Source of the DNA: Armatimonadota bacterium
GTDB lineage: Bacteria; Armatimonadota; UBA5829; DSUL01
DNA length: 64,000 nt
Assembly (NCBI GenBank): GCA_025998755.1
Contig: AP024674.1
Location: 2,434,162-2,498,161 of the forward strand
Direction: 5' to 3'
Shown: positions 385 through 54,833 of the stretch, piece after piece
How the letters are laid out: each line of letters starts with the position of its first letter
Position numbering within the stretch: the first letter of the stretch is position 1
Notes under the pieces: generated by a model
The model's database searches: none
Told to the model about the DNA's origin: nothing
The model's input: only the letters and a program-made list of their open reading frames with translations
Made by a program: the position numbers and the translations under genes

Positions 385-399
385 GGAACAACAAGTACG

Positions 400-2026: not shown

Positions 2027-2057
2027 GCGCTCACACCGGTTTTTCATCTCCTGCCTC

Positions 2058-3300: not shown

Positions 3301-3329
3301 TTTTCCGGTCAGAATAGCGACTCCGGCGC

Positions 3330-3358: not shown

Positions 3359-3367
3359 CTTTGACAG

Positions 3368-36633: not shown

Positions 36634-37945
36634 GGGGCTGCCCCGCTCCTTCCGCCAACTCGAAGATGGCCCTGGCGCACGCTTCGGAAGCGCCTCTGCT
36701 GGACCGGATCAGGTCGAGAGCCCGGCGGCGGTACTCCTCCTCATCCCGGCCCGAAACCAGCTCAGCCACGCGGGACGCCATCGCCTCTGGGGTCTCCTCG
36801 CGGAATGCCACTCCGGCCTGGCGAGCTCTGGCTCCAATATCGCGGATCTTGTAATCATAGGGACCATAGACCACGGGCACCCCCTGCGCCAGCGGCTGCA
36901 GGATATTGTGCCCCCCTTTGTCCACGAACGTGCCTCCCACAAACGCCACTCGCCCCAGGGCATACGCCGACGCCAGCTCCCCGAATGTGTCCAGCACCAG
37001 CACGTCGACGCTTCCGGCATGGCATCCGGCTGACCTTCGGACAGCGCTCAGGCCAGCGCTCTCCGCCAGCCGGCAGACATCAGGAGCCCGCTCCACTTGC
37101 CGCGGTGCAATCAGCAAGAAAAGCTCCGGTTCCCGGCGCCGGGCTTCAAGAAACGCCTGCAGCGCGACCTCATCCTCGCCGGGATTGGTGCTTCCCGCCA
37201 CGAACGCCGGCCTGCCAGGCTCCACGCCCAAACGCTCCGCCAGATCGCGCTTCTGTTCTGCAGACAGGGGCTCTTCAGCCTCGTCGAATTTGGTGTTGCC
37301 GGTCACCGCAACCGCTTCCGGATGAGCGCCCAGCGAGATGATGCGCTCCGCATCCTCTTCTGTCTGCATCAGAAAGCGGTCTATTCGCGAGAGTGCCCAG
37401 CGGAAGATCCAGCCGTGCTTGGAGGCGTTTTGCAGCATGTGGTCAGTTACGCGGCCGTTGAACAGCGCCAACGCGGCGCCGGCACGGGATGTCTCGCTTA
37501 GCAGATTCGGCCAGATCTCCGCTTCGCAAAGTGCCAGGCAACGCGGTTTGAGCCGCCCCACCACAGCGCGCACCGGGGGCAGCAGATCCACGGGCAGATA
37601 GAACGCTGTCACCTCCGGCAGGACCTTGCGCGCCATCTGATGGCCGGTGGCTGTGATGGTGGAGATGGCGGGCTGCCTGGATCCCGGCAGGGCCTGATAA
37701 GCCCGGACCACGGGGGCGGTGGCCGCCACCTCGCCCACCGAGACCGCGTGGAACCAGACCACATCCCCTCGCCTCAGCGCCCTCTGACGCTCCGTGGGCC
37801 AGCCCAGACGCTCGGCCCATCCATCGCGCGACTTGCCGTTCACCAGCACCCGGTACCCGAACCAACCCAGCAAAACCGGGCTGGCAACCGTCAGGGCCGC
37901 GTTATATGCCAGAAACGCCCCGCGTCCCGATTTGCCCTCAGACAT
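36626..37945 (-). CDS. waaA: 3-deoxy-D-manno-octulosonic-acid (Kdo) transferase
   Basis: The 439-residue GT-B enzyme attaches Kdo to the lipid A precursor. It has an N-terminal membrane-associated segment (FLAYNAALTVASPVLLGWFG), then VWFHAVSVGEVAATAPVVRA, the catalytic-region LALCEAEIWPNLLSETSRAG, LFNGRVTD, and C-terminal LVLDTFGELASAYALGRVAF, VGGTFVDKGGHNILQPLAQG. The ATG at 37945 overlaps the msbA stop by 8 bp. The Kdo synthesis genes (kdsA, kdsB) are not in the window. Confidence 0.95.
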   Translation of the reverse strand: MSEGKSGRGAFLAYNAALTVASPVLLGWFGYRVLVNGKSRDGWAERLGWPTERQRALRRGDVVWFHAVSVGEVAATAPVVRAYQALPGSRQPAISTITATGHQMARKVLPEVTAFYLPVDLLPPVRAVVGRLKPRCLALCEAEIWPNLLSETSRAGAALALFNGRVTDHMLQNASKHGWIFRWALSRIDRFLMQTEEDAERIISLGAHPEAVAVTGNTKFDEAEEPLSAEQKRDLAERLGVEPGRPAFVAGSTNPGEDEVALQAFLEARRREPELFLLIAPRQVERAPDVCRLAESAGLSAVRRSAGCHAGSVDVLVLDTFGELASAYALGRVAFVGGTFVDKGGHNILQPLAQGVPVVYGPYDYKIRDIGARARQAGVAFREETPEAMASRVAELVSGRDEEEYRRRALDLIRSSRGASEACARAIFELAEGAGQPRA

Positions 37946-39686
37946 CGGCAACCCCCGCATCCGCCAGGCGATGCTGCACCTCATACAGCTTACGGAACAG
38001 AGTGTCTCCGGACATCAGCTCTGTAAACGATCCCTCTTCCACAAGCCGCCCCCGCTCCAGAACAAGGATGCGGTCCGCCTTCGTGATGGTGGCCAGACGG
38101 TGCGCGATGATGAACGTGGTGCGCCCCTGCATCAGCTTCTCCAGCGCTTCCTGCACCAACCGTTCGGATTCGGCGTCCAGGGAGGAGGTTGCCTCGTCCA
38201 GAATCAGGATGCGCGGGTCCGCCAGGATGGCCCGCGCGATCGCAAGACGCTGCCTCTGACCCTGGGACAGGCGCGCGCCCCGCTCGCCCAGCACCGTCTC
38301 ATAGCCCTCCGGCGTCCGCAGGATAAAATCGTGAGCGTTTGCGGCCTTTGCAGCGGCTTCGATCTCTTCCTGCGTCGCATCCCGCCGGCCATAGGCGATA
38401 TTCTCGCGGATGGTGGTGGCGAACAGCACCGTCTCCTGAGGAACAATGGCGATCTGGCGGCGCAGCGGGGCCAGCTGCAGAGTGCGCACATCCCGACCGT
38501 CCACCAGAACCCTGCCCTCCACCGGGTCATAGAAGCGGGGGATCAGGCTTGCCACGGTGGACTTGCCCGCTCCGCTTGGTCCCACCAGCGCCACCACCTC
38601 CCCGCTGTTCACCCGGAACGTGACGTTAGTCAGGGCAGGCGTCCCGGTGGCGTAACGGAAGGACACGTTCTCGAAAGCCACATCTCCACGAATGCGTCCC
38701 GGATCCACCGCGTCGGGAGGTTCCACGATGTCGGGATGATCGTCCAGGATATCGAAGATGCGCTGAGAGGCGGCGGAGATGGTCTGGTAATTCACATTGA
38801 TGCGCCCGATCATCCGGGCCGCGCCGGCCACCTGCGTCATCAGAAAAACGAACTGACCCAGCTCTTCCCAGGTCAGCAGATTCTGACTGACCTGCCAGCC
38901 GCCGTAAAGCAGGATGCCGATGGTTCCGAACGCCCCCACCAGCTCCACGGTGGGGTTCAGCATGGCGGTGCGTTTGGCTCCCTTCATAGCGGCGCGGTAG
39001 CCTTCCCGGTTCTGACGGGCAAAGCGGTCCATCTCATAGTCTTCCGCCGCGAAGCTCTTGATGATGCGCATCCCGGAGATGGTCTCTTCCATCAGCGAGG
39101 TAAGATCCGCAAGGCGCATCTGAAGCAGCGAAGTCAGCGATCGCATCTTCCCGGCAATCCGGGCGATGACCAGCGCCATCACCGGGACGGCCACCAGCGC
39201 CGCCAGGGTGAGCGATGGACTCAAGCGGAACATCCACGCCAGCCCGACAAGACCCTTGACCGGACCCTGAATCACCTCGATGAACAGGGGGGAACTGGTC
39301 TGGATGACGTTGACGTCATTGGTCATCCGGCTCAGGATCTGCCCGGTCCGCTGCCGGTCGAAAAAGCTGAGGGAGAGTGCGTGCAGGTGATTATACAGTC
39401 TACCTCTCAGGTCCATCGCCAGGCGGAAGATGCCCGCCGAGAGCAGCACGGTTTGCTGGTAGCTGAAGAACCACTTGCCCCCGTAAATGAACAGGACGAA
39501 CCAGCACAGCTCCAGCAGAAGCTGCTGGGCCCGGTCCGGCGAAGCCATTCCCAGCTCGATGAACTTCTTCAGCGCCAGCGCGATGGACAGGTCGAACAGA
39601 GAGGCCACTCCTGCCGCGAGCAATCCGCCGGCGAAGTACTTGAGATGCGGCCTGGCGATGTCAAGCAACCGGCGGAACGGGCTCAA
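37938..39686 (-). CDS. msbA: MsbA-type lipid A ABC exporter
   Basis: The 582-residue half-transporter has an N-terminal six-helix membrane domain and a C-terminal nucleotide-binding domain: Walker A GPSGAGKST, signature SQGQRQRLAIARAIL, Walker B RILILDEATSSLD, and H-loop IIAHRLATI. It would flip Kdo-lipid A across the inner membrane, which its location between lpxB and waaA supports. The start is TTG at 39686, overlapping the lpxB stop (TTGA), with AGGAGG 5 bp upstream inside lpxB; longer starts in the frame are less likely. Confidence 0.93.
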   Translation of the reverse strand: MSPFRRLLDIARPHLKYFAGGLLAAGVASLFDLSIALALKKFIELGMASPDRAQQLLLELCWFVLFIYGGKWFFSYQQTVLLSAGIFRLAMDLRGRLYNHLHALSLSFFDRQRTGQILSRMTNDVNVIQTSSPLFIEVIQGPVKGLVGLAWMFRLSPSLTLAALVAVPVMALVIARIAGKMRSLTSLLQMRLADLTSLMEETISGMRIIKSFAAEDYEMDRFARQNREGYRAAMKGAKRTAMLNPTVELVGAFGTIGILLYGGWQVSQNLLTWEELGQFVFLMTQVAGAARMIGRINVNYQTISAASQRIFDILDDHPDIVEPPDAVDPGRIRGDVAFENVSFRYATGTPALTNVTFRVNSGEVVALVGPSGAGKSTVASLIPRFYDPVEGRVLVDGRDVRTLQLAPLRRQIAIVPQETVLFATTIRENIAYGRRDATQEEIEAAAKAANAHDFILRTPEGYETVLGERGARLSQGQRQRLAIARAILADPRILILDEATSSLDAESERLVQEALEKLMQGRTTFIIAHRLATITKADRILVLERGRLVEEGSFTELMSGDTLFRKLYEVQHRLADAGVADV

Positions 39687-40927
39687 ACAGCACCTCCTGA
39701 CTGCGGCTCGCCCCGCGTCTCGCGCAACCACGCGAGGAGCGCTTCCGCGGTCCGATCAAGCGCCCCGGGCGGCTCAAGCATGCTCCTGAGTTCGCAAAGA
39801 GTCCGCCCCTGCGCGGCACGCTCCGGCGTGTCTTCCAGAAGCGAAAGCAGATGCGCGGCGATCGCTTCTCCCGTCGCCTCATCCTGACGCAATTCGGGAA
39901 CCACCGGCGCATCGGCCAGGATGTTAGGCATTGCGATATAGCGAATGCGGATACGGCGCAAGCGATACTCCAACTTCATCAGCCGAGACCCGCGATAGGC
40001 CACCACCATCGGGGTTCCGGCCACCAGCGCCTCCAGAGTGACGGAGCCGGAGCAGGCTGCGGCGGCCCTCGCGTGGCAGAGCGCCTCGATGGTGGCACCC
40101 CGCGCCAACGCCACGCAGGGACGCACCCCGGTGCGCTTCTCCTGCCGCTCCAGCTCCTTCCGCGTGATGGCGGCCGCCTCTGCAGCCGGGAAATGATCCG
40201 ACAGCGCAACGGCGAAGGCCGTCCGGCCCGGGCGCTGCTTCTCGATCAGAGCCGCCGCTTCCAGCACCACCGGCAGCAAGTGGCGCACCTCGTGGCCGCG
40301 GCTGCCGGGCAGTAATGCGACAAGGCTTCGCCCCGGGTCCAGGTCCAGCGCATCCGAGAACTCGCGCGCCGTCATCCGGGGACGCACCTGGTCCAGCAGG
40401 GGATGCCCGAGGAAGTCCGCCCTTGCTCCTGCCTGCCGGAGCATCTCGGCATACCAGGGATACGGGCTGATGAAGTAATCTGCCGCCTGCTCCACGCCGG
40501 CCGAAAGGCGATCCCTGCGCCAGGATCCGGGCGGAAACCAGTATGCCACCGGGATCCCGATGGAACGGGCAAAGGGGGTGATTCGCAGATTGAACGCTCC
40601 CGCGTCCACAGCCAGCACCATGTCCGGCCTGCGGAGCTCCAGCTCCCGGCGCGCGCGTTTCAGCAGCCGGAGCATATCCGGTATCAGCCGCGCCACCTGC
40701 ACGAATCCGATGGCGGAAACCTGAGAAGCGTCGAACAGAAGCTCCATCCCCGCCTCGCGCAGCCTCCGCCCGCCGATTCCCCAGCATCTCAGAGAAGGAA
40801 CTCTCTTCCGTAGCGCCGGCAGAAGAAGGGACGCCTGGTGATCCCCCGAAGCGTCCCCGGCAAAGACCGCTATTTCCAGCCCGCCCGGCCGGGCCGCTGT
40901 CTCCAAGCCCCCGGAACCGGCTTGCAT
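39683..40927 (-). CDS. lpxB: lipid-A-disaccharide synthase
   Basis: The 414-residue GT19 enzyme joins UDP-diacylglucosamine and lipid X. Motifs: VFAGDASGDHQASLLLPALR, SVSAIGF-type QVSAIGFVQVARLIPDMLRL, VDAGAFNLRI, YWFPPGSWRRDR, LGHPLLDQVRP, VALLPGSRGHEVRHLLPVVL, and the C-terminal SGSVTLEALVAGTPMVVAYR. The first ~15 residues are an extension before the family's usual start. It follows lpxA after 8 bp. Confidence 0.95.
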   Translation of the reverse strand: MQAGSGGLETAARPGGLEIAVFAGDASGDHQASLLLPALRKRVPSLRCWGIGGRRLREAGMELLFDASQVSAIGFVQVARLIPDMLRLLKRARRELELRRPDMVLAVDAGAFNLRITPFARSIGIPVAYWFPPGSWRRDRLSAGVEQAADYFISPYPWYAEMLRQAGARADFLGHPLLDQVRPRMTAREFSDALDLDPGRSLVALLPGSRGHEVRHLLPVVLEAAALIEKQRPGRTAFAVALSDHFPAAEAAAITRKELERQEKRTGVRPCVALARGATIEALCHARAAAACSGSVTLEALVAGTPMVVAYRGSRLMKLEYRLRRIRIRYIAMPNILADAPVVPELRQDEATGEAIAAHLLSLLEDTPERAAQGRTLCELRSMLEPPGALDRTAEALLAWLRETRGEPQSGGAV

Positions 40928-40935: not shown

Positions 40936-41754
40936 TCAGCCCCTCGGAGTATCCAGCTGCCGCCCCCCGAATCCGAACTTGATGTTCTTCACGAACTCCA
41001 GCAGGTAATCCCGCTCCGGGCTGGGTTCCACCTCGGCCTCGATGGCCTCGATGGCCTGCGAGACGTTGAAATTGGAGCGGTAAAGCAGCTTATACGCCTG
41101 ACGCAAGCCGCCCCTCACCCGGGCCGAGATGCCGGCGCGGCGGCAGCCGACGACGTTCAGGTCGTAGACATGCGCCGGACGTCCGTCCACCATCATGAAA
41201 GGTGGAACATCCTGCACCACCTTGCTCATCCCGCCGATCATTGCCAGGCGGCCGATTCGCGTGTACTGATGGACTCCCACCATCCCGCCGAAGACTACTC
41301 GGTCCTCCACCTGCACGTGTCCGCTGATCCCCACCATATTCGCCATGGTGATGTGGCTGCCGATCTTACAGTTGTGGCCGATGTGGCAGTAGGCCATGAG
41401 AAGGTTGTCGTCCCCGATGACGGTGGACTCCCCTTCGCCCGTCGCCCGGTGGATGGTGACGAACTCCCGAATGATGTTGTTGTCCCCGATGATGAGAAAA
41501 CTCTGCTCGCCCTTGTACTTATGATCCTGCGGCTCGCCGCCCAGGAAGGCGGCCGTCTTCACCACGCAGTTGCGGCCGATCCGGGTCCATTGCTGGATGA
41601 CGGCGTGGCTCTCGATGCGGGTGTTGTCCCCAATCACCACATCCGGGCCGATGACGACATACGGCCCGATCTCCACTCCGCGTCCCAGTTCCGCCGAGGG
41701 GTGCACTTCGGCCGTCGGGTGCAGCCGGGTGCCGACTTCTTCATCTATTTTCAT
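40936..41754 (-). CDS. lpxA: acyl-ACP:UDP-N-acetylglucosamine O-acyltransferase
   Basis: The 272-residue enzyme catalyses the first step of lipid A synthesis. It is a left-handed beta-helix made of hexapeptide repeats (VEIGPYVVIGPDVVIGDNTR and following) and ends in a helical domain. The catalytic His is H127 in AYCHIGHNCKIG, and the family blocks KYKGEQSFLIIGDNNIIREF and MVGISGHVQVED are present. It lies between fabZ and lpxB, the usual order. Confidence 0.96.
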   Translation of the reverse strand: MKIDEEVGTRLHPTAEVHPSAELGRGVEIGPYVVIGPDVVIGDNTRIESHAVIQQWTRIGRNCVVKTAAFLGGEPQDHKYKGEQSFLIIGDNNIIREFVTIHRATGEGESTVIGDDNLLMAYCHIGHNCKIGSHITMANMVGISGHVQVEDRVVFGGMVGVHQYTRIGRLAMIGGMSKVVQDVPPFMMVDGRPAHVYDLNVVGCRRAGISARVRGGLRQAYKLLYRSNFNVSQAIEAIEAEVEPSPERDYLLEFVKNIKFGFGGRQLDTPRG

Positions 41755-41786: not shown

Positions 41787-42263
41787 TTACTTTCCCACCG
41801 CCACCGGCTGCTTCTCTTCAGCGACCATCGGCTCGTCGCGCTCCACCAGTGCGAACATCAGCTCGCCGTCGGCCACCATCTGGCCGTCCACATAGGCGGA
41901 GGCCCGGACTTTGCCGATGTTGCCCCGGGCCTTCAGCATCTCCACCTCCGTGATCAGCGTGTCCCCCGGGAGCACCGGCTTGCGGAAGCGGAACCGGTCT
42001 ATGCCAGCGAAATAGGCAAGCTTGCCCATGTGCTCCGGCAGCGAAAGGATGAGGACGCCGCCCACCTGAGCCATCGCCTCCACGATCAGAACGCCGGGCA
42101 TCACGGCGTGGCCCGGGAAGTGTCCGTTGAAGAACTCCTCGTTGATGGTGACGTTCTTCAGCCCCGTCGCCCGAACGCCAGGCTCCATTTTCAGGATACG
42201 GTCCACCAGCAGGAAGGGATACCTGTGGGGGAGTATCGCGCGGATCTGCTCCACGTCCAGCAT
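41787..42263 (-). CDS. fabZ: 3-hydroxyacyl-ACP dehydratase FabZ
   Basis: The 158-residue hot-dog enzyme removes water from beta-hydroxyacyl-ACP in fatty acid synthesis and competes with LpxA/LpxD for the same acyl-ACP pool. Motifs: [17 protein letters not shown], the catalytic His in [13 protein letters not shown] (H48) and Glu in [11 protein letters not shown] (E62). The ATG at 42263 is chosen because GGAGG lies 8 bp upstream and it starts the usual N-terminus; an ATG 66 bp further upstream adjoins the lpxC stop and would add 22 residues. In some bacteria lpxC and fabZ are fused; here they are separate. Confidence 0.94.
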
Positions 42264-42329
42264 TCCGTAAGCCTCCGTAAAGGGGCCAACACCGGCCCCG
42301 TGGTCTCTTTGCTCTGTAATAGACGCCAT

Positions 42330-43157
42330 CTATACCGCCTTTCCTTCGACGATCCGCCGCGCCATCTCAACGTTCGCCCGGTGGCCGGTGGCCACTCCGA
42401 ACAACGCCGTCCGGAGAGCGCACCCGCACAGAGCGAGATCGCCGAGCATATCCAGCAACTTGTGCCTCACCAGCTCGTCGCTGAAGCGCAGCGGCGGCCG
42501 GATGGCGTCATCGTAAACGATGATAGCATTCTCCTCGCTTGCTCCCCGCGCCAGTCCTTTCGCCTGCAGTTCCCGGGCTTCCCGGAACAGCCCGAACGTC
42601 CGCGCGGGAGCCACGCGCTCCACCGCATTTTCCCCCTCGGAGAACTCAGCAAACTGCAGCCCGATCAGCGGATGACCATAGCGCATCAGATAGCGCGCCG
42701 CAAATGCCTGCGATGCGCTAGCCAGCAGCGTGCTGGCGCCCTCCGTCACGCACTCCAACCCATCCGGACGGCGCACGATGCGCTCACGCCCCTGCGGGCA
42801 CGTTCCCACCCGCAAAAACGCCTGGCAGAACGGCATCGCGCTCCCATCCATCGCGGGAAGCTCCGGCCCCTCTACCTCGCAGACGGCGTTGTCTATTCCG
42901 CAGATGGCCAGAGCCGCCAGCAGATGCTCCACGCAGACCACCCGCTCGCCGCCGCCGCCCAATGTCGTGCCCCGCGAAGTATCCACCACGCTCGATGGAA
43001 CGGCAGAGATCTGCTGCTCCCCCTTCCGGAACACGATACCTGCTCCGGCCGGGCCTTCGTGCACCCGGAGCTTGCAAAGCTCCCCGCTGTGAATGCCGAT
43101 GCCCTCAAAAGCCGCGGTCCCCGCCAGGGTCCTCTGCTCTCCCGGAGTAAAGATCAC
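42330..43157 (-). CDS. lpxC: UDP-3-O-acyl-N-acetylglucosamine deacetylase
   Basis: The 275-residue zinc amidase makes the first committed step of lipid A synthesis. The zinc ligands are visible: H78 in CVEHLLAAL, and H232 and D236 in ELVRHKLLDMLGDLAL; the general-base Glu is E77 and the catalytic His is H259 (GHRANVEM). N-terminal TLAGTAAFEGIGIHSGE is typical. It overlaps the lpxD stop by 4 bp and is followed by fabZ. Confidence 0.96.
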   Translation of the reverse strand: MIFTPGEQRTLAGTAAFEGIGIHSGELCKLRVHEGPAGAGIVFRKGEQQISAVPSSVVDTSRGTTLGGGGERVVCVEHLLAALAICGIDNAVCEVEGPELPAMDGSAMPFCQAFLRVGTCPQGRERIVRRPDGLECVTEGASTLLASASQAFAARYLMRYGHPLIGLQFAEFSEGENAVERVAPARTFGLFREARELQAKGLARGASEENAIIVYDDAIRPPLRFSDELVRHKLLDMLGDLALCGCALRTALFGVATGHRANVEMARRIVEGKAV

Positions 43158-44197
43158 TTCTCCCCGGCTTCCCGCAGCCGCTCCTCAAGCTCCGCCAAAC
43201 GCTGCTCCAGGGAACGGACCTGCTTCACCATCTCCGGAAGTCGTCCCAGGCTGGCCCAGATGCGCATCTCCTCGCCGTAGGGGCGTGCGGGATATCCCGC
43301 GATCTTGGCTCCAGGCGGTATGTCAGAGATGAGACCCGCCCGCGCCGCCACCTGGGCGCCATCCCCCACCTTCACGTGGTTCTTGATGCCCACCTGCCCG
43401 GCAAGCAGGACCCCGTCACCGATCACGCAGCTGCCCGAAATGCCCACCTGCGCGATGATGATGCAGTTCTTACCGATGCGCACATTGTGCGCCACGTGGA
43501 CAAGATTGTCTATCTTCGTCCCTGCCCCGATCTCCGTGAAGCCGGTGCGCGCCCGGTCTATGGTGACGCAGGATCCGATCTCTACGTCGTCGCCAATGAT
43601 GACCCCGCCGATATGAGGGACTTTCTGGTGCCCGTTCTCGGACGGATTGTAGCCGAAGCCGTCCGCGCCGATGACGCTGCCGGCGTGGATGTTCACCCGC
43701 CGACCGATGCGCGTGCCGGGATAGATCACCACGTGGGGATACAGAAAGGAATCCTCTCCCACGGTGACATCATCACCCACGTACGTGAAGGGAGAGATCA
43801 CGACCCCCCGTTCGATCACCGCCCGCTCCCCAATATAGGCGCAGTGCCCCACGCACGCCTCAGGCGAAACCGACGCCCCCGGCGCCACATAGGCGGTGGG
43901 ACGGATCCCTGGCTGCTCTTTGACAGCCGGAGCGAACATCTGCAGCACACGCGAGAAGGCGAGGCGCGGGTTGGGCACCATCACCATGGGCTTCGCCGGA
44001 TTCTCCGGCTGAAAGCGTGTCAGGACCGCCGCCGCAGCTGACTGCTGGGCGATGGAGAGATGTTTCGGAGACTCCGCGAACACCAGATCCCCCGGCCGGG
44101 CGTCGTCGATGGACGACACACCCGACACAATGGTGTCCGGATCCCCCACAATTTCGCCGCTTACCAGTTCGGCGATCTGCCGAAGATTGACCGTCAT
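43154..44197 (-). CDS. lpxD: UDP-3-O-acylglucosamine N-acyltransferase
   Basis: The 347-residue enzyme adds the N-linked acyl chain in lipid A synthesis. An N-terminal uridine-binding domain (VSGVSSIDDARPGDLVFAES) precedes a left-handed beta-helix of hexapeptide repeats, including GSVIGADGFGYNPSENGHQK, the segment that positions the catalytic His (QKVPHIGGVIIGDDVEIG), and DNLVHVAHNVRIGKNCIIIA. A helical coiled C-terminus ends the protein (LEQRLAELEERLREAG). The ATG at 44197 matches the family start (MTVNLRQIAELVSGEIVGD); the frame extends 18 codons upstream. Confidence 0.95.
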   Translation of the reverse strand: MTVNLRQIAELVSGEIVGDPDTIVSGVSSIDDARPGDLVFAESPKHLSIAQQSAAAAVLTRFQPENPAKPMVMVPNPRLAFSRVLQMFAPAVKEQPGIRPTAYVAPGASVSPEACVGHCAYIGERAVIERGVVISPFTYVGDDVTVGEDSFLYPHVVIYPGTRIGRRVNIHAGSVIGADGFGYNPSENGHQKVPHIGGVIIGDDVEIGSCVTIDRARTGFTEIGAGTKIDNLVHVAHNVRIGKNCIIIAQVGISGSCVIGDGVLLAGQVGIKNHVKVGDGAQVAARAGLISDIPPGAKIAGYPARPYGEEMRIWASLGRLPEMVKQVRSLEQRLAELEERLREAGEK

Positions 44198-44271
44198 TGC
44201 GTGTAATCCGTGAACGCACCAGCCGCCGCTATGAGGACTTCGCCCCCGCACGGCCCAATCGCCGGAATCCC

Positions 44272-45312
44272 TCAGGGCTTGCCGCCAAGCAGGACTGCAG
44301 CCCGGCGCCTCACCCGTAAAGAGCTGCTCCCCGGTTCAGCAGTCTCCCGCGCAAGCTCTGCCGCCAGACGCACGTCTTCGCGCATCTTCCTCTGGGCGGC
44401 TCCCTTGGACCCACGAAAGTCCGGCGCTGCGGACGGCCTGCTTCCTTTTATTTGAGAGACCGGCGCACCATACCCCGCCCCCCGGGCCGAGCCAGCCGTC
44501 CCAAGCTGCGCCAGCACTTCCTCTAAAGCCGCCTCCGCTTCCTGCCGTTTGCTCTGGACCTGATCGGCTGCGCGCTTTCGGGCGGACAGCATCTCCTCCT
44601 GTTCCAGATACGCCATCTGCTCTTCAAAGGCCGTGCGCATCCGCGCGATGCGCCCCTCAGTCTCGGCCTCAAGCGCCCGGATTCGGGACTCGGTTTGCGC
44701 TTCCAGCTGGCGGATCTGGGCGGCTACCTGCTCACGCTCCTCGCTGAGGCCGGAAGGGACCTCCCACAGACTGGCCCGGATGCGGCTATCAAGCGCCGCC
44801 AGACGAAGCTGCAGCGCGGTCCTCTGCGGGCCCGCCTCTCGCCGGATGGCCGCCGCGCGTTCCTTGCTCTCCTGCCGTACCTTCTCGATCTGGCGCTCCA
44901 GCTCCGGCTCCGCCTCCGCGCGCTTCACCCGCACCTCCAGCCTGGCCGAATCCATCTCCCGACGCAGGACATTTTCACCGTACCGCTGCGCCATGGCATC
45001 AGCCCGTCCACGCAGTCCCTTCTCCACTGCGCGGATGTCCATCACCCCACTCCGACCCGTGGGAGCCGTCGTCGAGGGTGCCCCCATACCTCCCTCCTCG
45101 AGCGGCCGACCAGGAAAGGAGAGCGTCGCAGCACGCATCCGATTATAGGGATGAAGCCCTTCCAGCAGTCGGATGTCCGGCTCAGGAGGAGAAGCCAGCT
45201 GGACCGGACGCGCGCTGCGGCCGCAACCGGCCGCGCTCAGCACGAAAGCGAGGGCCAGCGCAGCCGCGAGGCCACTACGAGCCTCACCCCGAGTTGAGCG
45301 TCGCGATAACAT
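44272..45312 (-). CDS. coiled-coil lipoprotein, function unknown
   Basis: I do not recognise this 346-residue protein. It has a type II signal peptide with lipobox LSAAGC (mature Cys about residue 30) and then a long charged coiled coil, about 90-270, rich in Arg/Glu/Gln (LERQIEKVRQESKERAAAIR, QIRQLEAQTESRIRALEAET). The Gly/Ser-rich C-terminus is followed by a basic end. Its place right after skp, and its Skp-like helical build, suggest a periplasmic or outer-membrane-attached helper in envelope assembly. The ATG at 45312 overlaps the end of skp by 29 bp. Confidence 0.7.
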   Translation of the reverse strand: MLSRRSTRGEARSGLAAALALAFVLSAAGCGRSARPVQLASPPEPDIRLLEGLHPYNRMRAATLSFPGRPLEEGGMGAPSTTAPTGRSGVMDIRAVEKGLRGRADAMAQRYGENVLRREMDSARLEVRVKRAEAEPELERQIEKVRQESKERAAAIRREAGPQRTALQLRLAALDSRIRASLWEVPSGLSEEREQVAAQIRQLEAQTESRIRALEAETEGRIARMRTAFEEQMAYLEQEEMLSARKRAADQVQSKRQEAEAALEEVLAQLGTAGSARGAGYGAPVSQIKGSRPSAAPDFRGSKGAAQRKMREDVRLAAELARETAEPGSSSLRVRRRAAVLLGGKP

Positions 45313-45922
45313 CCTCGGTGATGTCCACTCCTCCATACAGCACGGCTACCTTGTCCACCACCGTCGCCAGCCCCTTCTCCTGCGCCACCTTGGCGATCGC
45401 CTCCTTGAGGTCGGCCGTAATCTTGTCCGAAAGCTGGGACTTGCGCTGCTCAACCTGCTGGCTGTAATCCTCCGCCAGCGTTCGCCCGTTCGCGTCGTTC
45501 CTGTTGGCCAGGTCCCGCAACTCCTTCAGCCGCGCCCGCTCCTGCTCCGTCAGCTCGCTCTTGTTGCTGAGAGCATTCAGCTCTTCGTCACGCTGCTTGG
45601 AGATGCGCTCCAGCTCGTCTATGCGGCTCCTGTCGGCATCCGTCAAAGGGCTCTTTGCCCGGAGCTCCACAAGCTGCTTGATCTCCTCCTCGGTGAGCAA
45701 CCTGTGAGACGCACGGATGTCCAGCTCCCGCCGGAAGCTCTCCACCATCCGGTTGATCTCTTCATTGGAAGCAGTGGTGACTTTGTACTCGTTAAACGCC
45801 TTCTGCACGTCCACCACACCGACCGCAGGCTGAGTTGCCCCTTGCGCCGCAACCGGTGCGCACGCCGCCAAGACCACAGCAACGACAACCGCCAGAGCGC
45901 TGATTGCCCTAATGCTATTCAA
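45284..45922 (-). CDS. Skp/OmpH-type periplasmic chaperone
   Basis: The 212-residue protein has a signal peptide (ISALAVVVAVVLAACAPVAAQ) and a Skp core: VGVVDVQKAFNEYKVTTASN, a long helical hairpin (ELERISKQRDEELNALSNKS, LKELRDLANRNDANGR) and the C-terminal IAKVAQEKGLATVVDKVAVL. It would hold unfolded outer-membrane proteins for BamA, encoded directly upstream. An LAAC sequence in the signal could also be read as a lipobox. The helical arms are longer than in E. coli Skp. The start is TTG at 45922 with GAGGAG 9 bp upstream. Confidence 0.88.
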   Translation of the reverse strand: MNSIRAISALAVVVAVVLAACAPVAAQGATQPAVGVVDVQKAFNEYKVTTASNEEINRMVESFRRELDIRASHRLLTEEEIKQLVELRAKSPLTDADRSRIDELERISKQRDEELNALSNKSELTEQERARLKELRDLANRNDANGRTLAEDYSQQVEQRKSQLSDKITADLKEAIAKVAQEKGLATVVDKVAVLYGGVDITEDVIATLNSG

Positions 45923-45977: not shown

Positions 45978-47780
45978 TCAGAAAGCCTGGCCGATACTGA
46001 AATGCGTCCGGGACCCTTCGTCCCCGAAACCGTAATCGAACCGCAGGTTTCCAATGGGGGTGGCCACCCGGATGCCCAACCCGTATCCCAAATGCCCCTT
46101 GAACGAGCTGGACTGGCTCAGTTCCGGGATGACATCCACGTAGTCGTTCCCCCACGCGCCGCCGTAATCCGCGAAGATCACACCACCCAGACCGCCGGTC
46201 AGGGGTACGCGGTATTCGACGCTGGTGAGAAACATAGAGTTGCCCCAGAAGCGGTCCTCACGGTATCCCCTCAGACGCTCCGCGCCGCCAACGAAATACT
46301 GCTCCCAGAACGGCAGCTTGCCGGTGCTGGTGGCAGCCCTCAAGCGCACCGCAATGGTCCGCCGCCGGTCCTTCACGGTCTCCTTCGGCCCTTCCGGGCT
46401 GAAATAGCGCCTGATGTCCAGTTCGGTCTTGGTGAAACCACCCTTTCCCGCGCGGCTGACATCGGAGTACCCCGGCTCGAAGGATAGGGACAAATAGCTG
46501 CCCACGCCGGGATCCAGCGCGAAGTCGCGCCTGTCGACTACTCCTTTGAAGGCAACCCCTGTCACCGAACCGGACTGCGCGATGGCCACCAGCATGGGAT
46601 CCAGCGCGCTGCCCTCCCGGAAACTGGAATCCACGGACTCCGTCCGGAACGTGACGAAGCCTCGCAACTTCTCCCCGAACGGGCGCGACAAGCCCAGGTT
46701 GACCCCCTTGCGCCGCTCCGTGTAGTCGGCGTCCTCGCCGATGTTGACGCCGCCGCCGAAGGCGCTGGAGGAGAACCGATACACCGCCCGATCATACAGC
46801 CGGATGGACAGGCTGGTGTTGTCCGGCCGGAACCAGGGGCTGTAGTAGCCCAGCTCGTAGCTGTCACCGCGGCTTCCGCCGGCTTCGTAAAGGGCGTTCA
46901 ACCCCAACCCCTTGCCCTGGAAGTTGGTCTCGGAGAGCTCCACCCTTCCCACCACCTTCTGATAGGAGCTATAGCCAAGCCCCACACTCACCTGCCCCGT
47001 CTTCTTCTCCTGCACGGGGATGATGATATTCAGATATCCCTCGCGATCGCCCGGCTCCCTTCGCGGGGGTTCATACTTCTCCGCGTCCAGATAGTCCAGC
47101 TCATAAATGCGCGTGATATCTCTCTGAAGCTGCTGGGCGTTGTAGAGATCTCCTTCCTTCAGCTTCATCTCCCGCTTCAGCACCCAGGGCTTGGTCTTTT
47201 TGAGCCCTGTGAACTCGATCCGTCCGACGCGGAACTCCATGATGGGCAGGGTCAGCACGCCCGTGGCCGGGTCAATTTCGGCCTCGTTCGTGACGTAGGC
47301 CAGATACTGCTTGCGGGCATACAGGTTCTCGATGTCGCGCAGGTCCTGCTCCAGGGTGTTGATATTGTAGACCTGTCCAACCTTGGTGCGGATGGCATCC
47401 AGCAACTCTTGCTCGCTGACCACCGTGTTCCCTCGGAAGACGATGGCCGTAACCACCGGGTTCTCCACCACCTCGAAGACCACACGCACTCCGCCGGGAG
47501 CAGCTTCTTCCCTGGCACTCACCACCTGGAAGAAGCCCATCCGGTCTATGGCGTTGCGCGCCTCCTGCATCTTCTGCCGGTCGAAGGGCATACCGGGCGT
47601 GAGCTCAATGGCCGAAAGAATGGCATCGCGGCCGATGTTCTTGTTACCGGTGATCTGGATCTCCACGATATTCCTGGCATCCTCCTGCTGGGCAGGGGTG
47701 TCCGTCCCAACAGCAAGCAACAGGATGGCCGCCGCCATCATCGCAAAGACCTGTTTGAGTTGCACGCGCTTCTCCTGCAT
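45978..47780 (-). CDS. bamA: outer membrane protein assembly factor BamA (Omp85)
   Basis: The 600-residue protein has a signal peptide (ending near DTPAQQ), about three POTRA domains (VEIQITGNKNIGRDAILSAI; AIVFRGNTVVSEQELLDAIR; GRIEFTGLKKTKPWVLKREM) and a 16-strand-type barrel. The barrel holds the Omp85 RGY/RGF motif in ERLRGYREDRFWGNSMF and ends in Phe (THFSIGQAF). It inserts beta-barrel proteins into the outer membrane. Three POTRAs are fewer than the five of E. coli and closer to cyanobacterial Omp85. It is followed by skp, the classic order, and preceded by an ECF sigma gene. Confidence 0.95.
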   Translation of the reverse strand: MQEKRVQLKQVFAMMAAAILLLAVGTDTPAQQEDARNIVEIQITGNKNIGRDAILSAIELTPGMPFDRQKMQEARNAIDRMGFFQVVSAREEAAPGGVRVVFEVVENPVVTAIVFRGNTVVSEQELLDAIRTKVGQVYNINTLEQDLRDIENLYARKQYLAYVTNEAEIDPATGVLTLPIMEFRVGRIEFTGLKKTKPWVLKREMKLKEGDLYNAQQLQRDITRIYELDYLDAEKYEPPRREPGDREGYLNIIIPVQEKKTGQVSVGLGYSSYQKVVGRVELSETNFQGKGLGLNALYEAGGSRGDSYELGYYSPWFRPDNTSLSIRLYDRAVYRFSSSAFGGGVNIGEDADYTERRKGVNLGLSRPFGEKLRGFVTFRTESVDSSFREGSALDPMLVAIAQSGSVTGVAFKGVVDRRDFALDPGVGSYLSLSFEPGYSDVSRAGKGGFTKTELDIRRYFSPEGPKETVKDRRRTIAVRLRAATSTGKLPFWEQYFVGGAERLRGYREDRFWGNSMFLTSVEYRVPLTGGLGGVIFADYGGAWGNDYVDVIPELSQSSSFKGHLGYGLGIRVATPIGNLRFDYGFGDEGSRTHFSIGQAF

Positions 47781-47803: not shown

Positions 47804-48355
47804 TTACAGACAGCCTTCGAGTCTGCGCCTCAGCATTCCTCTTGCCCGGGCCAGCCGCGTCCGCACCACGTCCAGCCCCAGGCCGGTCGCATCTGCTATC
47901 TCCTGATAGCTGAGCCCCTGCACATCGCGAAGCACCACCACCACGCGATACTCAGGAGGCAGACCATCTATGGCCAGACGGATGCGCCGCGTCCTCTCCG
48001 CCTTCTCCAGCGCTCCGTGCGGCTCCGCTTCGTCCGAGACCGGCTCCGTTTCCATCGGACCCTCCGGCCGCCGGTGCGCATCGCGCGCCCTGTTCCGGCA
48101 CAGATTCAGGGCAATCCGGCAAAGCCATGGATAAGCCCGCGAGCGGTCTTTGAGCGAATCCCAGGCGCGGAAGGCCCGGTAGAACGCCTCCTGAGTCAGG
48201 TCGGCCGCGTCCTCCCGGTCACCCACCAGCCGCAGAACCAGATTGTAAAGCTTCCTGTCATACAGCGCTACGAGGTCCTCGAAATCCCGGACCTCCTGCG
48301 TCCCCACGGAGTCCGTTTTTCCCGCGCCTGTGCTGTCCGCTCCAGCAGTGTCCAA
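47804..48355 (-). CDS. ECF-family sigma factor embedded in the envelope operon
   Basis: The 183-residue ECF factor has region 2 (FEDLVALYDRKLYNLVLRLV, DLTQEAFYRAFRAWDSLKD, YPWLCRIALNLCRNRARDAH) and region 4 (IDGLPPEYRVVVVLRDVQGL, SYQEIADATGLGLDVVRTRL, ARARGMLRRRLEG). It lies 44 bp after the tamB-like gene and 23 bp before bamA, all on one strand. No anti-sigma gene is next to it. By analogy with sigma-E, which controls bamA, skp and lpx genes in E. coli, it may regulate the envelope block it sits in; this is inference. Confidence 0.92.
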   Translation of the reverse strand: MDTAGADSTGAGKTDSVGTQEVRDFEDLVALYDRKLYNLVLRLVGDREDAADLTQEAFYRAFRAWDSLKDRSRAYPWLCRIALNLCRNRARDAHRRPEGPMETEPVSDEAEPHGALEKAERTRRIRLAIDGLPPEYRVVVVLRDVQGLSYQEIADATGLGLDVVRTRLARARGMLRRRLEGCL

Positions 48356-48399: not shown

Positions 48400-51300
48400 T
48401 CAGAACCGGAACGCGCCTTCCAGTCCGAGTATGCGGTCTCCGAACCGGCTTTCGCCATAGCTGACCCGTGTCCGGCCTTTGAGGTCGTAAGTCAGCTTCC
48501 ACTCGGACCACTCCGCGGCCTCTCCCAATCCTCTCCAGAGGGTCAGACTGAGCCCCCCGAAAAGGCACCGTGTGAGAGACAGGTTCAACCTTTCCGGGCC
48601 GCCGAAGCCGAAGGCCAGCTCCTCCAGCCCGAACACATCCGCCAGAGCCTCCTCCACAGGCTGCAGCATCCCGGGAGCCACGCTCGCGGTGAAAAGCTGC
48701 GCCATCTCGCGTTGAAGCTGCGCACCGCCAGAAAACCCTCCTGGCCCCACACCGGCCCGCTGCGCCAGCAGGTTCATGATCTGCTGAGTCTCCAGCCCCG
48801 GCGGCGAGCTCTGGAAAGTCAGTTGCGGCTCCTGCAGGGATCCCCGGAGAGCGGCTTCTATTCTGTAGCTCGGCCCGCCCGGCCCTACCCCCACCGCTGA
48901 CGCCAGCGTAGTCTCAGCGCGGATGTCCAGCGTCACGGCCGGCGCGTTGGGAGAATCCCAGCTGAAATCTATCGTTCCCGGTGGCACCACGCGGAAACGG
49001 CTGCCCGGAAACAGTAGATATCCCGACCGCACCACCAGCCGTCCCGCGACGGATGGGTTTTCAAGGTCCCGGGACACCGCCACATTGCCTTCCACCCCCG
49101 CATTGAGCCTTGGGCCGCGCACCCTTAGGCCTTCACCGGCCCTCAGGGCCAGGGTGAGCCGCGGATTCCAGACAGGCTTCCGGCGCTCCTCGCGCTCCTC
49201 CGGTATGACCGGCAGTCCGACTGTTCCGTTTCGCGCCGTCACTTCGCCGGAGACCAGCGGCGACCGCACAGGCCCGGCCATTCGCAGATCCACATCCACC
49301 TTGCCCGAGTAGCTCTCGTCGTAGACGCCGGAAACGTTCCGGAACCTCAGACCCAAACCGCGAGCCCTGGCGGAGGCGTCCACCTGCCACCCCTCTGGCT
49401 CCAGTCCGGCGCCGCCTTCCACCACCAGCGTTCCCCCGTCGCTCGAATCCATCCGGAACTCGCGGATGGCCACCCGCGTCCCCTGAAGGTCCAGATCCAC
49501 CCGAACATTCTGGAAGAGCATGCTCATGCCGGTGATCGCGAGCTGTCCATCCGTCACCCGGACCAGTCCCCGCAGTTGAGGAACCGGCCACGTTCCGTCC
49601 ACCGTGATGCCAGCCTCGACATCCCCCGACGATCGCTCTGCATCCAGACGCGGGATGACCAGAGCCAGCAGGTCCATATCGGGATTGACCAGACGCGCCT
49701 CCAGGGATACCGGTGCTCCTTCACGGAACGCCAGCTCACGTATACTGAAGGGGACCGAGCCGGAGATCCGGACAACATTCTTCCCCGCCGCAATTGAGCC
49801 TTCCCGGACCTCCACTGAGTCTTCGCGGAAGAGCATCCGGCCAGTGGCGATGCGCTCCAGCTTGAGTCCCGCAAATTCTGCGTCGCTGATCAGGACCGAC
49901 CCCTCCACCTCGGGCGACTCCAGTGTACCGGACGCAGTGAAGCTAAAGTCCGCGGAGCCCGGGGCGGAAGAGAACTCCAGCAGCTGGGGGACGCGCTTCA
50001 AATCCACATTGTAGCCTTCCAGGTCGGCCTTCAGACGGCCCTGGGTGTCAAGGGATCCGTTGCCCACCACCACCATCTCACCGTCTTCGATCTTGAGGCT
50101 GTGAACCGCGTATCCCTCAGAACTGGCGGAGGCCGATAGCTCCGCATGACCCAGGTCGGCTCCCCAGACGGTGATCTGCGAAGAAGTTAGCTCCGCCTTC
50201 CCGGAGTAGGATCCGTTGTCCCTGCTGATGCGGATCTCCCCCGTGAGGCGTCCCTGCACGCGCTCTGGCAGCTGCAGCAGGATCTGCCGGGTCGCGCCTT
50301 CCACTCCCAGGGAGAGCCCAATCCCCCGGGCGATCGCCAGCAGTTCCGCCGCATCCACCGGCTGCTCCCCGCTGCCATCCGCGCCTAACCGTACCACAAC
50401 CTCCGAAAGCCCTCCGTCGCCGCTCTCCGTGGAGAGGATGGCCCGCTCGATGAGGATGCGCCCCCCCGCCACCCGGGCGGAACCGTCCCGCAGCGAGAGC
50501 TTGCCCTCAGCCCAGACCAGGTCGCAATCATCCAGTTCCACTTTGCGGGCCGCAAGCTGCAGATCGCGAGACGAGAACCTGGCACGGACCTCAGGGGTGG
50601 AGATGGAGCCCTCCAACCGGCCTTCGATATCCACCCGTCCGGACGCCGGGATGCCTCGCTGGGCGGCCATCGCCAGGGCTTCGGCGACATCCAGATCCTT
50701 CAGCCGGAATGCGAAGTCCAGCCGGCCGGTCTCCTCCAGCACACCGGATGCCGTTGCCGCCGCAGCTCCTCGTTGAGCCCGGAACTCGGCCAGCTCCAGC
50801 CGTCCTGCGTCATAGGATCCGCGGGCGGAGGCCAGCGGGATGGTCAGGCCGGCAACGTCCAGATCTTCAGCGCGCACGTCGAAGGCAGCGCGCAGATCCG
50901 GCCAAGAGCCCGTTATAGCCGAGACCTCCCCACTCACCCGGCCTTCCATCCCTTCCAGCGCAGGAACATAAGCAGCGACCTGCCCCAGCTCCAGTGACCG
51001 GATGGTTGCGGACAGGTCGAACGACCTCGAAGCCTGCAGCGGGTTTCGGATTCTCCCCCGCAGGGCAATCTCGCTGGTGCCGTGATAGAGCCTGGCCTCA
51101 TGGATGTCCACAACATTGCGGTTGGCCATCAGCCTTGCCAGCGCCCCGTCCAGCTCAAGCCCCTCCCATCGCAGATCCATCCCCTGAAGGGCTCCCTCAA
51201 ACGTGGGATCCGTGAGCGGGCCGGAGATCCGGCCGCGGGCATCGAGTATCCCGCCCGAACCCGGCGGCGTACGAGGTCCCAGGAGCTCCGGTAGGGGCAT

Positions 51301-52926
51301 ACCTGCCGCCACAGCAGAGAGGTCCGCACGTCCGTCCAGTCCGATGCTTCCCGCGGCACTAACAAACCCGGAACGCGTGGAGATCAGCAGCGAATCCAGC
51401 AAAAGCCGCTCCCCGTGCAGTCGCCCGGACGCCCTCAGGGATGTAGCCTCAAGGCCGAAAGCCCGAGGCCGGTCCACGTCCAGTGTCAACCTTCCCTGGG
51501 TGGATTCACCGGACCAGCGCAAAGCGGCCTCTCCTGAAGCGTCGCCATTGACATCCCGAAAGCCCGCAGCCTCCAGGAGACGTCCGACGCGGACCCCGTG
51601 GAACACTGTGTGCAACTCGCCTTTCCGGCCACCGGAGGCATCCGCCGAAAGGCGGACCTCTGCGCGGCCCCCCTCAAGCTCCCCGCCGGCGAGCAGGGAC
51701 AACTCGCCTTTGGCCAGTCGGAAGCTGCTTCGGACGTCCGTTGCGCGGTTGCCGCGCCAGACCGCTTCAGGGATCCTTGCTTCGCCCTCGATACTCAGAT
51801 CCGCCGCCGGACCCGTCACGCGCACCTTTGCAGGCCCGCGTCCCCGGACAGCAATTCCCGCAGGGAGGCTGGAACGGGGAAGGAGACGCAGCATTGCGGC
51901 GTAGTCCGCCCGTGAGCTGGATGCCTCCGCCGCCACCTGAGGACTCCCGAGCGGACCCACCGTCGCCCTAACGTTCCAGGGGGAACCGGCAACCCGCCCC
52001 GAACCATCGAATGTCATCAGATCCGTGTCCGCAACGGTCACCGCACCGACGATACTGCTGATGCGCGGCAGCCCTCCCGGCAGCGCAACCTCTCCTTGCC
52101 GAACCCTGCCAGATACCCAGAAGTGCGTGCCGGACGCACGATGCGTCACCAGAAGCGACCCGTCGGCAAACCCTGCCTGAATGGGGGGCGTCCCGCGGGG
52201 CAGGAGGAACCGGCTGATGAAAGGCAGCGAGAGGCGCTCGGTGCGCACCGACAAAGAGGCGCGCTTGCGGTAGTCGAAGGCCACCTGCAGCCTGACCCGT
52301 CCGGAGACGTCCGTCCTGAGGACGCTCGCCGTGCAGTAAGCCCCGTTTCCCGACCGGAAGTCCAGGGTCCCGTCCACTCCCTGGCCATGAATCTCAAGAG
52401 GAACGCCGGTCCCGGACGGAGGTTTGCGGTCAATGTAGCGCACCCGACCGTTCGAGACGCGAACAATCCCACGGAATGGCTTGGCCTTCGGGCGCGGTCT
52501 CTTTGGCCGGAACGCCTCCACAAGACTGATCGTACCGTCGCGGCGCCTTTCGACGGTGATCTCCGGACGGTCCACAAAGACGGACGTCACGTGGGCCGAA
52601 GCGTTTTGCGGATCCCGGAGGAGCTCTCCCAGGTCGTAGCGCACAGTGACCGATCGGGCGCGCGCGATCTCGCCGAAACCATTCCGCGAAAGGGCAATAT
52701 CCTCCACCTTCAGCCTGCCCGGCATGGAAGCGTCGGCCGAGGAGAACGTTATCTCGATTCCGGTGGCAGCGGAGATCTCCGCGGTCACGAGGCGGATGAT
52801 CTCGGGGCGCGAATGCTGGAACTCTCGCCGGAGAAGGAAAATGGCGAATATCAGCAGTATTAGCGGAGGGAGCGCCGCCAGCAGGCGGGCAGCTGTCCAC
52901 AAGCTTCGGTTGAAAAGGCGTGTCAC
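48400..52926 (-). CDS. TamB-like/AsmA-family translocation and assembly protein
   Basis: The 1508-residue protein has one N-terminal membrane helix (LLAALPPLILLIFAIFLLRR). It then forms a very long beta-rich periplasmic body of repeated short strands, of the kind predicted to make a lipid-conducting groove. The C-terminal ~350 residues match the DUF490/TamB domain: TLDIRAETTLASAVGVGPGG, SYRIEALRGSLQEPQ-like, LTFQSSPPGLETQQIMNLLA, ending in barrel-like strands (RTRVSYGESRFGDRILGLEG, final Phe). Such proteins bridge the two membranes and help phospholipid transport or autotransporter assembly with an Omp85 partner. The GTG at 52926 is chosen for the membrane helix; a possible -10 (TATACT) lies at 52980-52975. 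It is the first gene of the envelope block. Confidence 0.88.
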   Translation of the reverse strand: MTRLFNRSLWTAARLLAALPPLILLIFAIFLLRREFQHSRPEIIRLVTAEISAATGIEITFSSADASMPGRLKVEDIALSRNGFGEIARARSVTVRYDLGELLRDPQNASAHVTSVFVDRPEITVERRRDGTISLVEAFRPKRPRPKAKPFRGIVRVSNGRVRYIDRKPPSGTGVPLEIHGQGVDGTLDFRSGNGAYCTASVLRTDVSGRVRLQVAFDYRKRASLSVRTERLSLPFISRFLLPRGTPPIQAGFADGSLLVTHRASGTHFWVSGRVRQGEVALPGGLPRISSIVGAVTVADTDLMTFDGSGRVAGSPWNVRATVGPLGSPQVAAEASSSRADYAAMLRLLPRSSLPAGIAVRGRGPAKVRVTGPAADLSIEGEARIPEAVWRGNRATDVRSSFRLAKGELSLLAGGELEGGRAEVRLSADASGGRKGELHTVFHGVRVGRLLEAAGFRDVNGDASGEAALRWSGESTQGRLTLDVDRPRAFGLEATSLRASGRLHGERLLLDSLLISTRSGFVSAAGSIGLDGRADLSAVAAGMPLPELLGPRTPPGSGGILDARGRISGPLTDPTFEGALQGMDLRWEGLELDGALARLMANRNVVDIHEARLYHGTSEIALRGRIRNPLQASRSFDLSATIRSLELGQVAAYVPALEGMEGRVSGEVSAITGSWPDLRAAFDVRAEDLDVAGLTIPLASARGSYDAGRLELAEFRAQRGAAAATASGVLEETGRLDFAFRLKDLDVAEALAMAAQRGIPASGRVDIEGRLEGSISTPEVRARFSSRDLQLAARKVELDDCDLVWAEGKLSLRDGSARVAGGRILIERAILSTESGDGGLSEVVVRLGADGSGEQPVDAAELLAIARGIGLSLGVEGATRQILLQLPERVQGRLTGEIRISRDNGSYSGKAELTSSQITVWGADLGHAELSASASSEGYAVHSLKIEDGEMVVVGNGSLDTQGRLKADLEGYNVDLKRVPQLLEFSSAPGSADFSFTASGTLESPEVEGSVLISDAEFAGLKLERIATGRMLFREDSVEVREGSIAAGKNVVRISGSVPFSIRELAFREGAPVSLEARLVNPDMDLLALVIPRLDAERSSGDVEAGITVDGTWPVPQLRGLVRVTDGQLAITGMSMLFQNVRVDLDLQGTRVAIREFRMDSSDGGTLVVEGGAGLEPEGWQVDASARARGLGLRFRNVSGVYDESYSGKVDVDLRMAGPVRSPLVSGEVTARNGTVGLPVIPEEREERRKPVWNPRLTLALRAGEGLRVRGPRLNAGVEGNVAVSRDLENPSVAGRLVVRSGYLLFPGSRFRVVPPGTIDFSWDSPNAPAVTLDIRAETTLASAVGVGPGGPSYRIEAALRGSLQEPQLTFQSSPPGLETQQIMNLLAQRAGVGPGGFSGGAQLQREMAQLFTASVAPGMLQPVEEALADVFGLEELAFGFGGPERLNLSLTRCLFGGLSLTLWRGLGEAAEWSEWKLTYDLKGRTRVSYGESRFGDRILGLEGAFRF

Positions 52927-53078
52927 GGGGCTACCGGCCTCTTGCGCGCTTCCGGCCTTCGCCGGACAAACGGGAGTATATCCCAAAAGTATTAGAGACC
53001 GGGACGGCCATCCAGGTGTCACCCGGTGCGGCGGTGGGAGCATTCTCTCCGGTCGTGCGCATCCTCCGCCTGTCAGAC

Positions 53079-54128: not shown

Positions 54129-54833
54129 TCAGCTCCTCCTGCGGAGCCTCAACAATCCGAGACCTCCCATCCCGGCAAGTGCCCCCAACTGGAAGAACAC
54201 CGGCTCTGGAATGGGGAGGGCATTGCCTTCCAAAAACTCCACCCGCAAGCCTGTGGGATTGCCTGTTCCCTGTCCCGGGGTGCCCCCCCAGGCGAGTGGC
54301 TGGTTCACCACGTGGAACTCAAGGGTATTGACTCCGGCGACAAATCCGCTATTCAGCGTAAACGAATACCAACTGGTGAATGCGCTCTGGGGAATGCTGC
54401 TGACCGGCGTATTGTTCAGGCTGATATTTACGAACATCTGGGCGTTATTATCCGAACTCCACCGCCCTGTGACGACAACGGAGGAAGGCACATACCCGGT
54501 AAGATCCAACTGGTAGCTGTACTTATATGTCCCCGCGTGAGCGGTGGTCTGGCCGTTGACATACGGCCCGATCCACGCCGAGGCGGAAGTGTTCGGCAGC
54601 CAGTTCGGATGGGCGATCATCTTGAGCGCCGTGCTCGGAGATCCGGCCGGCACCGAAAACAGCGTGTAGTGCGGATCGGGCGTGCCGTCTGACAGCACGT
54701 TCTTGGCCGCATCCACACCCGTATTGAACAGCAGATGGGCAAGATTGCCCGTCTGGCCGTATGCCGCCGGCGTACTCACCACGAGGACCGCAGCCAGTAA
54801 GATGAGAAAGCTTGTCCTTTTCATCGTGATCAA
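54129..54833 (-). CDS. PEP-CTERM sorted exported protein, second family
   Basis: The 234-residue protein has a signal peptide (MKRTSFLILLAAVLVVSTPA, cleavage near AYGQT). The C-terminal anchor is IPEPVFFQ, a hydrophobic helix (LGALAGMGGLGLL) and RLRRRS. The ectodomain is beta-rich with galactose-binding-like features (WIGPYVNGQTTAHAGTYKYS, LDLTGYVPSSVVVTGRWSSD, NNAQMFVNISLNNTPVSSIP), as seen in several surface proteins of this class. It is not evidently related to the ectodomain at 25047-26027. The start may be TTG at 54833 (AGGAGG 5 bp upstream) or ATG at 54824. Confidence 0.85.
   Translation of the reverse strand: MITMKRTSFLILLAAVLVVSTPAAYGQTGNLAHLLFNTGVDAAKNVLSDGTPDPHYTLFSVPAGSPSTALKMIAHPNWLPNTSASAWIGPYVNGQTTAHAGTYKYSYQLDLTGYVPSSVVVTGRWSSDNNAQMFVNISLNNTPVSSIPQSAFTSWYSFTLNSGFVAGVNTLEFHVVNQPLAWGGTPGQGTGNPTGLRVEFLEGNALPIPEPVFFQLGALAGMGGLGLLRLRRRS

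Follow-up and report, generated by a model that had tools for sequence, protein, structure and literature searches.

An ECF sigma factor gene conserved between tamB and bamA in Armatimonadota without a neighbouring anti-sigma gene

To our knowledge, nearly all detailed work on how envelope stress governs the building of the outer membrane comes from Proteobacteria, in which the sigma factor and its targets are unlinked and the anti-sigma factor does the sensing. The Armatimonadota sigma factor analysed here resembles E. coli RpoE (sigma-E) with RseA in being an ECF sigma factor, in its link with bamA and LPS genes, in a putative GNAAC-N16-GTC-type promoter before its own gene in other classes of the phylum, and in the envelope-type candidate targets of one genome (G037). 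Unlike in the RpoE-RseA system, the gene lies inside a tamB-bamA block and has no RseA-like neighbour, the NCBIfam model of RpoE is not reached, and the autopromoter is absent in the class to which the analysed DNA belongs. Among named families and solved structures, Mycobacterium SigE, Bacillus SigW and Pseudomonas SigH/AlgU are closest to this sigma, but it reaches none of their curated cut-offs, and each of them has its own known anti-sigma factor and context.

ECF sigma factors without an anti-sigma factor are a recognised, poorly explored class (PMC8999054). The present sigma resembles them in that no cognate anti-sigma gene lies nearby, so that regulation must be transcriptional or otherwise non-canonical, and differs from them in having neither a regulatory extension nor an adjacent kinase, two-component or TetR gene, its neighbours being tamB and bamA. 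As to the block itself, the part of PMC5007114 considered here describes a tamB/bamA/skp order with clustered lpx genes in many diderm phyla and lists Armatimonadetes as having lpx genes. Our locus shares both the order and the clustering with this cluster of diderm Terrabacteria, but carries a sigma gene inserted between tamB and bamA, whereas that part of the source mentions a sigma factor 0 times. A literature search, extending to few of the subscription journals, found no description of a sigma gene in this place. An envelope ECF sigma is known in kind, and its phylum-wide conserved tamB-bamA setting appears to be new.

The sigma gene and its block

The window, i.e. the whole stretch of 64,000 nucleotides that was analysed, covers positions 2434162-2498161 of a single-contig genome of 3.29 Mb. 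Its outer-membrane block comprises the following features, with tamB, bamA and the lpx genes together on one strand:

48400..52926, minus strand: tamB, translocation/assembly inner-membrane protein, 1508 aa (PF04357, E 4e-36)
47804..48355, minus strand: ECF sigma factor, 183 aa, sigma2 and sigma4 only, with orthologues in 47 of 61 Armatimonadota genomes
45978..47780, minus strand: bamA, outer-membrane protein assembly factor (POTRA and Omp85, E about 1e-38; TIGR03303, E 6e-79)
44272..45336, minus strand: coiled-coil lipoprotein-like ORF, by position only in the place of the Skp/OmpH genes of other phyla
43154..44251, minus strand: lpxD (TIGR01853, 350 bits, above cut-off)
42330..43157, minus strand: lpxC (TIGR00325, 183 bits, slightly under the cut-off of 187)
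41787..42329, minus strand: fabZ (TIGR01750, above cut-off)
40936..41754, minus strand: lpxA (TIGR01852, above cut-off)
39683..40927, minus strand: lpxB (TIGR00215, above cut-off)
37938..39731, minus strand: msbA-like ABC transporter (TIGR02203, E 8.5e-150, below cut-off)
36626..37984, minus strand: waaA/kdtA, Kdo transferase (NF004388, E 1.2e-82, below cut-off)
35548..36633, minus strand: lpxK (TIGR00682, above cut-off)

An earlier note on this DNA had placed an ECF sigma gene on the same strand between tamB and bamA, built into a block for outer-membrane assembly and LPS synthesis, and both statements were borne out: the three genes are separated by gaps of 44 bp (tamB-sigma) and 23 bp (sigma-bamA), the protein has the expected domains, and the lpx genes follow. 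The tamB start was set at the likely GTG at 52926 by comparison with genomes G002 and G003, the ORF itself extending to 53145. Neither Pfam nor NCBIfam gave a match for the coiled-coil ORF. Upstream of tamB, the product of 54129-54833 on the minus strand is a secreted protein whose C-terminal tail is PEP-CTERM-like (IPEPVFFQLGALAGMGGLGLLRLRRRS).

Pfam places Sigma70_r2 at residues 28-95 (E 2.1e-15) and Sigma70_r4_2 at residues 123-173 (E 1.7e-15) of the sigma protein and finds no third domain beyond regions 2 and 4; the start codon, a TTG at 48355, is uncertain. With 100 bits against a cut-off of 42.9, TIGR02937 assigns the protein to the ECF (group IV) sigma-70 factors, while the RpoE model TIGR02939 gives it 96.8 bits against a cut-off of 236, which leaves it outside the RpoE family. 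The protein ends right after region 4, and the extensions of its orthologues are short and unconserved, with no conserved extension that might serve as a sensor. ECF43 factors are activated by phosphorylation and have lost the acidic DAED motif of region 2.2 (PMC8999054). This loss is not seen in our sigma, which retains acidic residues there (D52 in all and E56 in nearly all of 13 orthologues) and should therefore, unlike ECF43, bind polymerase without phosphorylation.

Conservation of the gene order and absence of a linked anti-sigma gene

Sigma and BamA were each searched in the same 61 Armatimonadota genomes, their surroundings were read from the fetched loci, and genome and family tallies were compiled by hand. 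The sigma gene adjoins bamA on the same strand in 45 of the 61 genomes, nearly all with tamB detected upstream, and in 23 of 27 families, so that the earlier expectation of a tamB-sigma-bamA order in relatives held. Two more genomes have tamB-sigma without bamA: the contig of G028 stops right behind this pair, while the bamA of G026 lies on another contig, the gene after tamB-sigma (locus L156 on contig C73) encoding an NADH-dehydrogenase-like iron-sulfur protein. In nine genomes bamA lacks this sigma upstream, either with tamB directly before it (G016, G021, G029, G038, G051 and G056) or with neither gene before it (G009, G013 and G055). Five of the 61 could not be judged owing to contig ends or a missing bamA (G020, G025, G043, G048 and G059). 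In the window's class the orthologues score well above paralogues, with best matches of more than 125 bits, and the grouping of the orthologues in the sigma gene tree follows taxonomic family. Among the best 80 matches listed, from named genomes, no tamB or bamA adjoined a sigma match of another phylum.

Because it is conserved across the phylum, this order is far beyond chance, and the sigma gene in the block is probably ancestral to Armatimonadota, with vertical descent and several losses; its loss from at least nine genomes that keep bamA shows it to be dispensable for the block. These same data bear on an alternative in which an old operon order holds the sigma gene in place, the protein controlling unrelated genes with no special outer-membrane link. 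Repeated loss of sigma while tamB-bamA stays, as well as the G026 genome in which sigma remained with tamB after bamA had relocated, would fit such a reading; the persistence of the order in nearly all families is against it. Spacing within the block varies, with tamB-sigma distances of 4 to 50 bp in several loci of the window's class and about 2.5 kb in the Fimbriimonadia-type loci L058, L069, L131 and L175. In L175 a translation near sigma resembles a beta-propeller of the TolB type (PDGGSIAFTSSRTGWWQVFLMDANGANPRQLT), which points to an additional gene of envelope type within the block.

We searched the tamB-bamA interval of 69 non-redundant loci (the window and 68 others), including the sigma-bamA gap, for the HxxxCxxC signature in the three coding-strand frames. 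No anti-sigma-type ORF with this signature was found in any of them, and no kinase, two-component or TetR gene was seen in the interval. The absence of an adjacent anti-sigma gene, claimed for the window, holds phylum-wide. As a control, all seven of the next-best ECF genes of the window's genome have an HxxxCxxC ORF directly downstream, so the lack of a partner is specific to the tamB-bamA sigma and does not extend to the genome as a whole.

The two-finger anti-sigma protein at 2221-3300 had been put forward as a possible unlinked partner. It belongs to a block at 1-6368 that consists of an ECF sigma gene (cut by the window start), an anti-sigma gene, a gene for an STN protein, a second zinc-finger gene and a gene for an outer-membrane-like protein:

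400-1284: anti-sigma of the window-start block
1133-2026: STN-domain protein of the same block
2188-3300: second zinc-finger anti-sigma-like protein, the two-finger candidate

The anti-sigma, STN, second zinc-finger and outer-membrane protein genes recur together in G001 and G003, where the orthologues of the candidate stay in this antiA-STN-OMP block of a different sigma. Because the same block recurs, the natural partner of the two-finger protein is the window-start sigma, and we rejected it as partner of the tamB-bamA sigma. In this block, the plus-strand ORFs 3368-5401 and 4842-6368 overlap and have the look of a single gene for an outer-membrane protein (3368-6368) that would be split by a frameshift near 4850, either a sequencing error or real.

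A canonical control of the RpoE-RseA kind, with the membrane anti-sigma gene relocated elsewhere in the genome, has some appeal, given that the sigma, with its typical sigma2 and sigma4 regions, is an ordinary ECF of the active type in need of some brake, and that the genome holds at least seven zinc-finger (HxxxCxxC) anti-sigma candidates. Yet each candidate found adjoins its own sigma gene, the two-finger protein has its place in another conserved block, and none of the 69 loci retains an anti-sigma gene in the interval, where retention somewhere would be expected after a recent split. We consider this alternative unlikely. The best reading is an envelope sigma of the sigma-E kind that lacks a linked anti-sigma factor, with self-amplification likely in relatives and not evident in the window.

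Putative promoters of the block inside and outside the window's class

When word pairs in the tamB-sigma gap were counted without bias, the ECF-type pairs AACC-N15-TGTC and GTAAC-N16-CGTC emerged, which we summarise as the motif GNAAC-N16-YGTCYA and scanned for with the strict pattern [GC]NAAC-N15..17-[CT]GTC[CT]. The strongest raw word pair in this gap, TGGA-N13-TTCT, was set aside as coding sequence of the tamB C-terminus. Of 50 non-redundant loci that belong to other classes, 26 carry the strict motif in the tamB-sigma gap, about half thus being without it. This compares with a mean of 0.83 and a maximum of 4 in 200 dinucleotide shuffles, a measure of enrichment and not a formal probability because the pattern was chosen after the gaps had been seen, and with 0 on the reverse strand. 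By density, 25 sites fall in tamB-sigma gaps against 24 in the remainder of 803 kb, and the sigma-bamA gap has the motif in just one of the 50 loci. As sigma and bamA are mostly close together without a further promoter, a site before sigma would drive both, and an autoactivation loop feeding sigma-bamA is likely in classes other than the window's.

In the window's class, the ECF motif is missing upstream of both sigma and bamA in all 19 loci. Instead, seven of them have TTG-N19..22-TATAAT between sigma and bamA, compared with 0.07 in shuffles. In the window, no target promoter for the sigma was found, and a possible housekeeping element lies before tamB:

52975..52980, minus strand: TATACT, putative -10 element located 49 bp upstream of the tamB start, with a weak -35 in the window

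The same TATACT precedes tamB in G002 and G003, there with TTGACC 17 bp ahead. Upstream of tamB in the window's family, GTAAC-N17-CGTCAAA occurs in G002 only, where it overlaps the better housekeeping match TTGACC-N17-TATACT, and it was discarded. A check for a shared promoter gave no common ECF motif at tamB, sigma and bamA in this class. The self-amplifying envelope regulon proposed from the window stands in part: it agrees with the motif before sigma in other classes and is not supported for the window and its class.

The control circuit looks rewired in the window's class. On the simplest reading of its sequences, the tamB transcript would carry sigma, the autoactivation promoter would be gone, and in some of its members bamA would have its own housekeeping promoter. 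A sigma that is housekeeping-like and always active, with the tamB promoter alone setting its level and the output of bamA and LPS hence tracking tamB expression, would be in keeping with the very short tamB-sigma distances in part of this class, the -10 element before tamB in the window's family and the existence of transcriptionally controlled ECFs without anti-sigma factors (PMC8999054). We regard it as quite improbable, given that the search upstream of bamA and the lpx genes in the class yielded no sigma-dependent promoter and that seven loci carry a housekeeping-type promoter before bamA.

Candidate regulon and proposed control of the sigma

In the uncultured Armatimonadota genome G037 (6.1 Mb), the exact pattern AACTTTY-N9..13-YGTCTAA gave eight sites (L254-L260), compared with 0 for the reversed pattern, which together form a candidate ECF regulon. 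One is the sigma's own site, and five of the eight, sigma-bamA counted among them, are at envelope genes. The envelope sites other than the sigma's own lie 20-72 bp before genes for an M48 peptidase, an LTXXQ (Spy/CpxP-type) protein, an efflux-type membrane-fusion protein and a probable outer-membrane protein, the last a barrel called by reading of the sequence without a Pfam match; the M48 family includes E. coli BepA, a sigma-E target. Of the remaining three sites, one precedes the gene of a SWIM-type protein, one that of ribosomal protein L31 together with a DUF1385 gene, and one an ORF of unclear identity. This gene set matches what an envelope-stress regulon would look like. Its assignment to this sigma is not proven, because the GNAAC/YGTC core is common to many ECFs and G037 has 34 ECF-like matches.

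Whole-genome scans with a looser motif gave no excess over the reversed-pattern control in most genomes (G000, G002, G004, G047, G033 and others). Families f8 (G030, G044 and G057) and f18 (G040 and G053) have numerous AACTTTT-N-YGTCTAA sites, some near a different ECF gene, which probably represent a further ECF regulon with this type of motif. Since the AACTTTT-YGTCTAA sites in f8 and G018 are close to other ECF genes, we did not count them for this sigma.

The promoter data also bear on the idea that sigma is held in the block by operon order alone. The lack of an ECF motif at tamB, sigma and bamA in the window's class would suit it, but the promoter before sigma is conserved in many classes and the G037 candidate targets are mostly envelope genes, and together with the persistent gene order this makes it, in our view, very doubtful.

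Taken as a whole, the explanation that we find somewhat probable is that of an envelope-dedicated ECF sigma, ancestral in the block, autoactivated in many classes and rewired in the window's class. The sigma would have belonged to the outer-membrane assembly and LPS block in the Armatimonadota ancestor and would drive transcription at GNAAC-N16-YGTCYA promoters. Where one of these directly precedes the sigma gene, as in many classes, the sigma would raise expression of its own gene, of bamA and of the co-directional genes, among them those for LPS enzymes, and it may also switch on distant envelope genes. Because there is no linked anti-sigma factor, expression level or an unlinked regulator must control the sigma; its amount would be set by the tamB transcription unit and autoactivation, or by an unlinked regulator acting as a brake. 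In the window's class the autoregulatory promoter would have been lost, part of the class giving bamA a housekeeping promoter, and sigma would probably be a read-through product of tamB with targets elsewhere. Of all this, the identity of the genes, their conserved order, the absence of an anti-sigma gene next to sigma and the enrichment of the motif are direct observations; recognition of the motif by this sigma, co-transcription, a role in envelope stress and the rewiring are inferred. That the phylum-ancestral envelope sigma has no dedicated anti-sigma factor at all, its activity set by transcription of its own block, most classes having direct autoactivation of sigma-bamA-lpx and the window's class a later exchange of promoters that released bamA from it, seems to us somewhat unlikely.

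Here a deep-branching diderm phylum outside Proteobacteria keeps the sigma gene within the very block that builds the outer membrane, and no anti-sigma gene adjoins it. Lineages with the putative ECF autopromoter, with a housekeeping promoter or with sigma lost offer a natural comparison, and the locus provides a testable case for how outer-membrane assembly and LPS synthesis may be coordinated in Terrabacteria.
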